Positions 40,896-64,000 of a stretch of 64,000 nucleotides of DNA are shown piece by piece; the stretch's first letter is position 1; every line of letters starts with the position of its first letter. Position numbers and translations under genes: made by a program. The notes under the pieces were generated by a model. That model did no database searches. It saw nothing but the letters and a program-made list of their open reading frames with translations, and was not told the origin of the DNA. The DNA is from an uncultured Clostridia bacterium (GTDB lineage: Bacteria; Bacillota; Clostridia; Christensenellales; CAG-314): positions 29,105-93,104 of the forward strand of contig CANQPI010000004.1 of assembly GCA_947625725.1 (NCBI GenBank), given 5' to 3'.

Positions 40896-40973
40896 TGGTT
40901 GCGGGGGCGGGATTTGAACCACACGACCTTCGGGTTATGAGCCCGATGAGCTACCGGACTGCTCTACCCCGCG
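40896..40973 (-). tRNA. Initiator tRNA-Met(CAT), encoded CCA
   Basis: CGCGGGGTAGAGCAGTCCGGTAGCTCATCGGGCTCATAACCCGAAGGTCG...CCCCCGCAACCA; GGG/CCC in the anticodon stem and C1-A72 mismatch mark it as initiator. Confidence 0.93.
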
Positions 40974-41053
40974 ATATAAAGACTAGACTGTTTTGGCTTG
41001 CGCCGCGCACAAAGACGGGCTCGGCGTTCGCTACGCTCGGCTGAGGAGCCTCA

Positions 41054-41086
41054 ATGAGCTACCGGACTGCTCTACCCCGCGATATA
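41054..41086 (-). repeat. Duplicated 5' part of tRNA-fMet fused to a GC-rich repeat
   Basis: atgagctaccggactgctctaccccgcgatata identical to 40946-40978; adjoining ggcgttcgctacgctcggctgagg resembles the tRNA-Arg-linked repeats near 62.4 and 63.9 kb. Confidence 0.9.
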
Positions 41087-62063: not shown

Positions 62064-62324
62064 AATCTCTTAGCCCAACTCCTGTTTGTCGCGGTTATTA
62101 TACCACAAGCCCCCACTAAAATCAAGGCGGGTATCACGCCAAAGATTTCATTATACAGCCCGCCGAGAGGGAGAACGGAGCGGCGGCTTGCCACCAAGGG
62201 CACAACGCGTTAAGCGAAAGTGCATGTGGCACTTTCGTAGCCAAAGCGGCACGCGATTTAGAATCGCGGGCGGGGGTGGGTTGGCAGATTTTCTTTACTT
62301 GTACTCTGCTACGGACACAAATCT

Positions 62325-62417
62325 TTTGGTTCCGTAGACCAACGCTCTATCCAATTTCGCTAATACTCGCTACCGCTCGTGGCGTTCGCAACTTCGTTGC
62401 TCGGCTGAGGGCGCATA
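62325..62417 (-). repeat. Chimeric tRNA-Arg fragment repeat, copy 1
   Basis: tttggttccgtagaccaacgctctatccaatttcgctaatactcgctaccgctcgtggcgttcgc...gctcggctgagggcgcata; tRNA-Arg 5' half interrupted by a GC-rich insert. Confidence 0.85.
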
Positions 62418-62492
62418 TTTTATTCGAGCATGAAAAAGCGACCTCGTTTCTGAGGGGGGGGGGCGCCTTTCGAGTAAACACTATTGATACTC

Positions 62493-62954
62493 TTACTTTT
62501 TTTTAAAAAAACAAAACAATATGATACTACAAGTTATTGCTCCGCCCAAAATCGCTATATACCATATAACTGATTTCCCCATTATAATTGTAGATGACGC
62601 TTCGTCGCCTTTTGCTGTTGCCAAACAAATAATGCCCACAATTATTAAGAGAAAAGAAATAATCAAAGACACAATCATTATAGTTAATCTTATGCTACTT
62701 CTTTTTTTCGATTGAGGTTTCTTTGTATCACTTTCTCTACCCAAAAGCAATTCGTCCATACTAATATCGTAAATGCGAGATATCTCTGTGGCTTTTACTA
62801 CATCTAATTTTACTTTATCGTTTTCCCAGTTTGAAATTGTTTGACGAGAAACATTGAGTTTCTCTGCCAATTCATCTTGCGACAAATTGTGGTTTTCCCG
62901 TAAAATGTATAGCCGTTCGCCCAAAGTATTTGCTTCTTCGAGTTTTTTGTTCAT
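62493..62954 (-). CDS. XRE-family HTH regulator with two C-terminal TM helices
   Basis: LGERLYILRENHNLSQDELAEKLNVSRQTISNWENDKVKLDVVKATEISRIYDISMDELL then two hydrophobic segments. Confidence 0.88.
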   Translation of the reverse strand: MNKKLEEANTLGERLYILRENHNLSQDELAEKLNVSRQTISNWENDKVKLDVVKATEISRIYDISMDELLLGRESDTKKPQSKKRSSIRLTIMIVSLIISFLLIIVGIICLATAKGDEASSTIIMGKSVIWYIAILGGAITCSIILFCFFKKK

Positions 62955-63005
62955 GATTAAATTATAGCATAATTACCGAGCAAAAACAAGTATTGCTGTT
63001 GATTA

Positions 63006-63224
63006 CTATTTGTTACTATTTGCTTTTCGTTTCATAACTGCCCACACGATCAAACACAGGACGCTACAAATCGAATACGGAATTAAGATCAATAACGATA
63101 CTGTCGCAGGGAAACTCGTATATTGATTATTGAATATCGTCATATATCTGATTATCGTGTGTACAACTCCTGCCACCTCAACCAAAATAGCGATCAATAA
63201 TACCATCCATTTTTTATTTTTCAT
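63006..63224 (-). CDS. Small two-TM membrane protein
   Basis: 72 aa MKNKKWMVLLIAILVEVAGVVHTIIRYMTIFNNQYTSFPATVSLLILIPYSICSVLCLIVWAVMKRKANSNK. Confidence 0.6.
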   Translation of the reverse strand: MKNKKWMVLLIAILVEVAGVVHTIIRYMTIFNNQYTSFPATVSLLILIPYSICSVLCLIVWAVMKRKANSNK

Positions 63225-63559
63225 GTTTATTGCACTCCCATTTCACACAATGTAATATATTCATCGTATGTAAAACTCGTTGCCCAATTTGTCAACCCTT
63301 TTACTCCAAAAGCATTATTCGAAACAAAGGTGTTTCCGCTATAATAACCTACTCTATATTCGACAGAATAATTTTATCAAGTCCGCAAGCCAAATTCAAT
63401 CAAATATATTTGTCAATCTAATAAATATATTTGTCAATTTGTAAATAAGACTTTTTCGCTCGACTTCCTTTGGTATGTCACAACTAAATTTATTAGTTGT
63501 TCGGCTGAGGACGCATATCACATAGAAAAAACGACTCGAAAATATTCAAGTCGTTTTGT

Positions 63560-63570
63560 TGGCGCGCCAT
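63560..63570 (-). repeat. Duplicated 3' end of tRNA-Arg
   Basis: tggcgcgccat identical to 63705-63715, similarity extending into ggagcgcg/ggagctcg. Confidence 0.8.
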
Positions 63571-63704
63571 TGGAGCGCGCGGACGGAGCGTGGCGGAGTC
63601 CCCAGGGATTGTTACACGCAGTGTCAATCCCGTTATATATTTCAGTATCTCCTTGTGGCGCGCTATTCGAAAAAAGACACCTTGACGAAGCAAGGTGCCT
63701 TTCG

Positions 63705-63781
63705 TGGCGCGCCATAAGGAGCTCGAATCCCTAACCTTTGGTTCCGTAGACCAACGCTCTATCCAATTGAGCTAATGGCGC
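63705..63781 (-). tRNA. tRNA-Arg(ACG), encoded CCA
   Basis: GCGCCATTAGCTCAATTGGATAGAGCGTTGGTCTACGGAACCAAAGGTTAGGGATTCGAGCTCCTTATGGCGCGCCA; anticodon loop CTACGGA. Confidence 0.94.
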
Positions 63782-63805
63782 ATATTTAATTTGTGACAAT
63801 TTGAC

Positions 63806-63902
63806 TTTGGTTCCGTAGACCAACGCTCTATCCAATTTCGCTAATACTCGCTACCGCTCGTGACGTTCGCTTCACTGCGTTTCGCTCGGTTGAGGGCGCA
63901 TA
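63806..63902 (-). repeat. Chimeric tRNA-Arg fragment repeat, copy 2
   Basis: tttggttccgtagaccaacgctctatccaatttcgctaatactcgctaccgctcgtgacgttcgcttcactgcgtttcgctcggttgagggcgcata. Confidence 0.88.
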
Positions 63903-63923
63903 TTAAACTTTGCGATTATTTTA

Positions 63924-64000
63924 CAACGCTCTATCCAATTTCGCTAATACTCGCTACCGCTCGTGACGTTCGCTTCACTGCGTTTCGCTCGGTTGAGGGC
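63924..64000 (-). repeat. Chimeric tRNA-Arg fragment repeat, copy 3 (runs off the window)
   Basis: Identical to the corresponding part of copy 2 from caacgctctatcc to ggttgagggc. Confidence 0.88.

Follow-up and report, generated by a model that had tools for sequence, protein, structure and literature searches.

The short, dispersed palindromic repeats of bacterial genomes include the GTAG- and CGTC-tagged REPs and the REPINs with their RAYT transposases, which are non-coding, are built as hairpins or hairpin pairs and can sit inside other palindromes; the CGTC REPs lack a dedicated transposase, and one family of them sits in palindromes (PMC3733652). Rickettsia palindromic elements (RPE) are inserted inside genes, and those described in the same work sit in-frame in open reading frames (PMC3733652). 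IS200/IS605 elements and their non-autonomous derivatives have two terminal hairpins and insert exactly beside a short sequence, without target-site duplication. In mitochondria, small GC-rich double-hairpin or repetitive hairpin elements, regarded as mobile, have been found inserted in genes; no tRNA specificity is stated in the description that we consulted, and in sponges the substitutions fall in loops rather than stems (PMC2800124). In eukaryotes, Dada transposons, a superfamily of DNA transposons, target multicopy small RNA genes (PMC3706591). Here we describe a double-hairpin element of about 47 bp that interrupts extra copies of an arginine tRNA gene in a gut Clostridia genome and, across related bacteria, copies of many different tRNA genes, which would make it a tRNA-preferring relative of known bacterial palindromic repeats.

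Interrupted copies of tRNA-Arg beside an intact gene

The window analysed is a 64,000-nt stretch of an uncultured Clostridia bacterium (GCA_947625725.1, contig CANQPI010000004.1, positions 29,105 to 93,104; genome G000, contig C4). Below, genomes are designated by G, contigs by C and fetched loci by L, each with a number. A sequence-only reading of this DNA had reported several tRNA-Arg copies that carry the same GC-rich insert, and that observation is confirmed: three copies and a relic are present (Table 1), and the 24-mer CACGAGCGGTAGCGAGTATTAGCG, which spans the 3' junction of the insert, occurs three times in the window against 0.00 expected from shuffled sequences. As also stated there, copies 2 and 3 are identical where they overlap (77 nt); copy 1 differs in hairpin 1. 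Some details required correction. The tRNA part that precedes the insert is nt 1-5 (GCGCC), not nt 1-7, and the tRNA resumes at nt 6 after an insert of 45-49 nt. Copies 1 and 2 run through the anticodon arm, whereas copy 3 leaves the tRNA sequence after about nt 30 (TAGAGCGTTG then TAAAATAATC). The relic is longer than reported, and an intact tRNA-Arg(ACG), not mentioned in that reading, lies among the copies. The proposed link to an fMet-linked repeat is also real, because a half-length version of the insert sits in a partial fMet tRNA copy.

Table 1. Features of the array and of related sites in the window
Position	Strand	Feature	Basis
63705-63781	-	Intact tRNA-Arg(ACG), the parent of the broken copies	ARAGORN; Rfam RF00005, 61.4 bits
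62325-62414	-	Broken copy 1: tRNA nt 1-5 (62410-62414) and nt 6-45 (62325-62364) around an R1 insert	Sequence; gap-0 junction with the intact tRNA
62365-62409	-	R1 element in copy 1: CTCAGCCGA-GCAACGAAGTTGC-GAACGCCAC-GAGCGGTAGCGAG-T	Model R1, 55.8 bits, E 2.1e-16
63805-63899	-	Broken copy 2: tRNA nt 1-5 (63895-63899) and nt 6-46 (63805-63845) around an R1 insert	Sequence; repeat comparison; tRNA junction score
63846-63894	-	R1 element in copy 2, CTCAACCGA...GAACGTCAC form (G-C to A-T change on both sides of one pair)	Model R1, 48.2 bits; pair counted in the covariation analysis
63924-64000	-	Broken copy 3, cut by the contig end	Identity to copy 2; contig end
63949-63997	-	R1 element in copy 3	Model R1, 48.2 bits
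63477-63518	-	Decayed relic: tRNA nt 1-5 (GCGTC), CTCAGCCGA (the first nine bases of the insert), an AT-rich hairpin ACAACTAA/TTTAGTTGT in place of hairpin 1, then lost	Sequence; repeat families D3 and D4
63670-63699	-	Terminator-like hairpin just after the intact tRNA (GGCACCTTG/CAAGGTGTC, then T6)	Read by eye; not listed by a pattern scan
62160-62213	-	GC-rich stretch CCCTTGGTGGCAAGCCGCCGC, about 120 nt after copy 1	
62493-62954	-	Small HTH regulator gene with a C-terminal hydrophobic stretch, between copy 1 and the intact tRNA	
41023-41081	-	Partial tRNA-fMet copy (limits approximate) interrupted at the anticodon loop by a half-length R1 (41023-41045), between a promoter-like site and the intact tRNA-fMet	Model R1, 21.5 bits at 40980-41045
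40897-40974		Intact tRNA-fMet	ARAGORN

The copies have lost the ability to fold as tRNA. ARAGORN finds three tRNAs in the window, none of them a copy, and Rfam calls only the intact gene, with copy 2 reaching 14.8 bits, below the cut-off of 29. In R1 loci and in this window, Rfam searches returned only tRNA, one THF riboswitch and sub-threshold hits, and the insert matches no Rfam family. The GC-rich stretch downstream of copy 1 resembles a third insert found in the T-arm of Arg copies of other species and is probably a decayed remnant of the 3' half of copy 1.

The window ends at a contig end, and contig C3 of the same genome opens with the same repeat and carries a perfect TTGACA-17-TATAAT promoter (12/12 consensus positions) that points into the array. 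C3 and C4 are therefore very probably neighbours, the array very probably continues in C3, and the operon reads promoter, broken copies, intact tRNA. The sequence-only reading had named in advance, as signs of an assembly artefact that would count against it, collapse of the array on long-read assembly or absence of the copies from relatives. This objection fails: copies are present in relatives, and equivalent arrays are resolved inside long contigs of several independent assemblies, with species-specific hairpins, for example in G022 (contig C2, 288 kb, six insert copies around one intact tRNA) and in G021 (contig C8). Although the window ends in the repeat and many copies in other genomes lie near contig ends, an assembly artefact is refuted for the family, and only the copy number in this genome stays open.

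A double-hairpin family in duplicated tRNA genes

Comparison of 25 genomes of the genus gave a common form of the insert, here named R1, which reads CTCAGCCGA-[hairpin 1]-GAACGCCAC-[hairpin 2]-GAGT. A covariance model was built from 36 distinct copies, mostly 40-58 nt in the alignment. The joints are nearly invariant, while both hairpins vary freely in sequence and length. The stem pairs covary: 85.8% of cells were paired against 66.4% in shuffles, and 63 cells were changed on both sides against 21.2 in shuffles (0 of 500), whereas slid controls fell to 15-36%. For example, the pair G5-C35 is A-T in the CAACC...GTC form carried by copies 2 and 3. Predicted folding energies of single elements as DNA are unremarkable (z -0.2 to -1.8), and the structural claim thus rests on covariation only. 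Most loops are GNA triloops or four-base G..A loops. Such loops are unusually stable in DNA, which, together with insertion in both orientations, suggests, without proving, that the folded state that matters is DNA.

The model finds R1 in 25 of 25 genus genomes, with 1 to 23 copies each. Of 132 copies examined in fetched loci, 102 have flanks that join to a tRNA sequence (score >=12; random junctions have a median of 8 and a 95th percentile of 10.5, and the single high random value, 46, probably fell inside a tRNA). Most junctions against intact tRNAs are gap 0, that is, nothing is lost and nothing is duplicated, and the base after the insert is A followed by T or C. We distinguished 17 site classes in at least nine tRNA species and in both orientations, including Arg(ACG) 5/6, the Leu D-loop (antisense), the T-loops of Gly(CCC, TCC), Thr(CGT) and Arg(CCT), the Thr(CGT) anticodon arm (antisense), the fMet anticodon loop, and position 8 of Ala(CGC) and Thr(GGT) (antisense). 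The counts include tandem copies within arrays (24 Arg copies from 10 genomes), so that the number of independent insertions is smaller. The window's own genome also has R1-interrupted copies beside intact Thr(CGT), Gly(CCC) and Leu(CAA) tRNAs (contigs C30, C33 and C10; loci L286, L284 and L298), and many affected tRNA species in the genus have C at position 34. One fMet copy in G008 holds two R1 elements, at GTAGCTC^ATC and GGGCTC^ATA (L350, 758-857).

In 78 of the 102 copies, an intact tRNA of the same amino acid lies in the fetched locus, in 78 of 78 cases on the same strand, at a median distance of 115 bp, with 54 of the copies downstream and 24 upstream of it; most of the other 24 copies lie close to contig or locus ends. 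Both alternatives offered by the sequence-only reading, interrupted pseudo-tRNAs and a repeat family that parasitises tRNA genes, are supported and hold together. Its word "decoy", however, is not supported by anything found here.

A second hairpin family, E2 (GTAAGGAGC-[hp]-GCGACGGAATA...), often sits in the T-loop of similar copies of fMet, Leu, Ser, Thr and other tRNAs, at GGATT(C/T)^GAACC on the antisense strand (L355, L475, L477, L480, L481, L496 and others); 16 of 27 E2 left flanks score >=11 for tRNA against a null 95th percentile of 9.5. No E2 was found by exact pattern in G000. Arg copies of several species carry a third sequence (GAGCAGTCGCT...GGTGGCAAAGCCACCGC) in the T-arm, and at least one R1 copy scored as non-tRNA (L274) lies directly in the 3' part of an E2 element.

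Some copies with two inserts are otherwise complete tRNAs to CCA (fMet in G014, Arg in G022). These, and the exact, scarless positions in tRNA loops, might suggest that R1 and E2 are introns and that the interrupted tRNAs mature by splicing, like the multi-intron tRNAs of some archaea. This is very unlikely, given that elements with orientation-fixed joints occur in both orientations, that an intact cognate lies next door, that R1 also lies in IS200 copies and intergenic palindromes, and that many copies are truncated. It is also unlikely that the copies are footprints of integrative elements that used tRNA genes as attachment sites, with R1 as part of the attachment region. Partial tRNA duplication is what tRNA-targeting integrases leave behind, and an HTH gene lies within the array (Table 1), but the insertion points vary (positions 5, 8, 16, 27, 36, 39, 55-57, 70) and run in both orientations, several copies are full length to CCA, and the intact tRNA is typically very close.

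Mobility, age and the missing enzyme

One sequence at many unrelated sites in both orientations, with clean empty sites, means that R1 is or was mobile. Beyond tRNAs, an IS200 copy in G019 reads ACACG-ATTTCGTGT, while related IS200 copies in G016, G014 and G021 carry an R1, with a very short hairpin 2, at that point. At the order level, 39 of 297 sampled genomes have R1, mostly in this genus and in one other family that includes Pumilibacter intestinalis (G207). An exact pattern alone had suggested that the element is absent outside the genus within its family, but the covariance model found it in two other genera of the family and in several other families of the order, and this restriction does not hold. 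A broader exact-pattern scan of genome contigs gave mostly chance matches in GC-rich genomes and was informative only for Clostridia such as Pumilibacter; among viral contigs, one and two exact matches were found, the contexts of which were not examined. In G207, near-identical R1 copies sit inside dispersed palindromes at GTC^ATTGCGAG, which points to more recent spread. Two such palindromes, GTCATTGCGAG...GCAATC and GTCATTTCGA...GAAATC, are abundant in Pumilibacteraceae-like genomes and are used as insertion sites by R1 (L419-L438; G207, G255 and G131).

In the present genus, there is no sign of recent spread. Hairpins at the same tRNA site in different genomes are closer (0.298) than hairpins at different sites in one genome (0.408), which equal those between genomes (0.411). 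Recent amplification, as inferred in the sequence-only reading, thus holds only for the near-identical local copies, whereas the Arg-site insertion itself is old and shared by 10 species (10 genomes). The GlpA gene beside it is 72% identical at the nucleotide level between G000 and G015, and the HTH gene on the other side is 82% identical in protein between G000 and G022, where it also lies beside the array. The joints have hardly changed over that span, while spacers and hairpins have, which passive junk would not explain. This might reflect selection on the element in place, or repeated replacement at the same site, but the search itself depends on the joints, so that decayed copies are under-counted.

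No mobilising enzyme was found. An IS200-type Y1 transposase gene is present in only 14 of 41 family genomes, and R1 was found beside only a few of these genes, as an insertion inside the IS; in the flanks of nine Y1 genes inspected, R1 ends are absent as IS ends. The IS200 transposase is thus not a good candidate, although movement as single-stranded DNA by a Y1 enzyme was not assayed. R1 lacks the GTAG or CGTC tag that REPs carry at one end of a 20-40 bp palindrome, as its ends are CTCAG and GAGT. In contrast to REPs, its stem sequences are free while its single-stranded joints are fixed, it is present in 1-23 copies per genome, and its main sites are tRNA genes. It lacks the 15-30 bp terminal inverted repeats of classical MITEs, with only CTC/GAG (3 bp) at the ends, and it lacks their target-site duplication. 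Unlike the Rickettsia elements, it sits in duplicated tRNA genes and breaks them. R1 works like a small palindromic non-autonomous element, but we do not assign it to any named family.

Possible domestication and the favoured interpretation

ALTERNATIVES. A possible but doubtful alternative is that the R1-bearing copies have been domesticated and are kept by selection as structured leader or decoy elements of tRNA operons, acting in processing, RNase P competition, attenuation or sponging of tRNA-binding proteins. In support of this, Arg copies persist at one site with shared neighbours, and copies lie between promoter and tRNA for Arg and, in 6 of 25 genomes, for fMet, where they are probably transcribed with the gene. 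The fMet leader copy of G010 has a diverged D-arm and a rebuilt anticodon-side stem (TCGA/TCGA), as if its base pairing had been kept (L085, 1440-1530; L459), and hairpins change while joints do not. However, R1 lies antisense to the tRNA in Leu, Ala and Thr copies, most copies lie downstream of the intact tRNA, and the two Arg copies folded as RNA are no more stable than shuffles (z +0.84 and +0.86), all of which speaks against a general RNA role; presence at fMet is sporadic, and some copies are decaying, such as the relic in the window. A sponge of anticodon nucleases is unlikely for G022, whose copies mostly lack the anticodon arm. A more specific version, which the data do not exclude but which we consider improbable, is that the copies in the Arg leaders and some fMet leaders are conserved, co-transcribed tRNA mimics whose hairpin inserts are kept by selection, for example, to tune tRNA processing or to absorb tRNA-attacking enzymes.

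We favour, with moderate confidence, the interpretation that R1 is a very small (about 38-60 bp) non-autonomous mobile DNA element, made of two hairpins with conserved joints, whose preferred sites are redundant tRNA copies. In this view, tandem duplication creates a spare tRNA copy; R1, as a folded strand, is cut and joined into a loop of the spare copy by an enzyme that recognises the hairpins and joints; the element survives where the tRNA is present in a spare tandem copy, so that each interrupted copy would lie next to an intact one; and the dead copy tolerates further hairpin insertions and then multiplies or erodes by unequal homologous exchange, giving the arrays seen here. The common element, its dispersal to many sites in both orientations, the exact junctions, the adjacency to intact tRNAs, the covarying stems, the filled and empty IS200 sites, the growth of arrays and the vertical inheritance of some insertions are demonstrated by our data, whereas the use of folded single-stranded DNA, the strand involved, a structure-recognising nuclease/ligase not yet identified, the order of duplication and insertion, and the role of spare tRNA copies mainly as a tolerated haven are inferences.

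What appears new is the strong preference for tRNA genes. We know of no bacterial REP-like or MITE-like element that prefers tRNA genes, and the papers found describe none, although the search covered only an open-access library and earlier description elsewhere cannot be excluded. Tandem pseudo-tRNAs of this kind can break metagenome assemblies and confuse tRNA annotation. This family offers dozens of exact filled/empty junctions, a fixed pair of joints with freely varying stems, and parallel insertions at homologous tRNA loops, so that its insertion specificity and the missing enzyme become directly testable.
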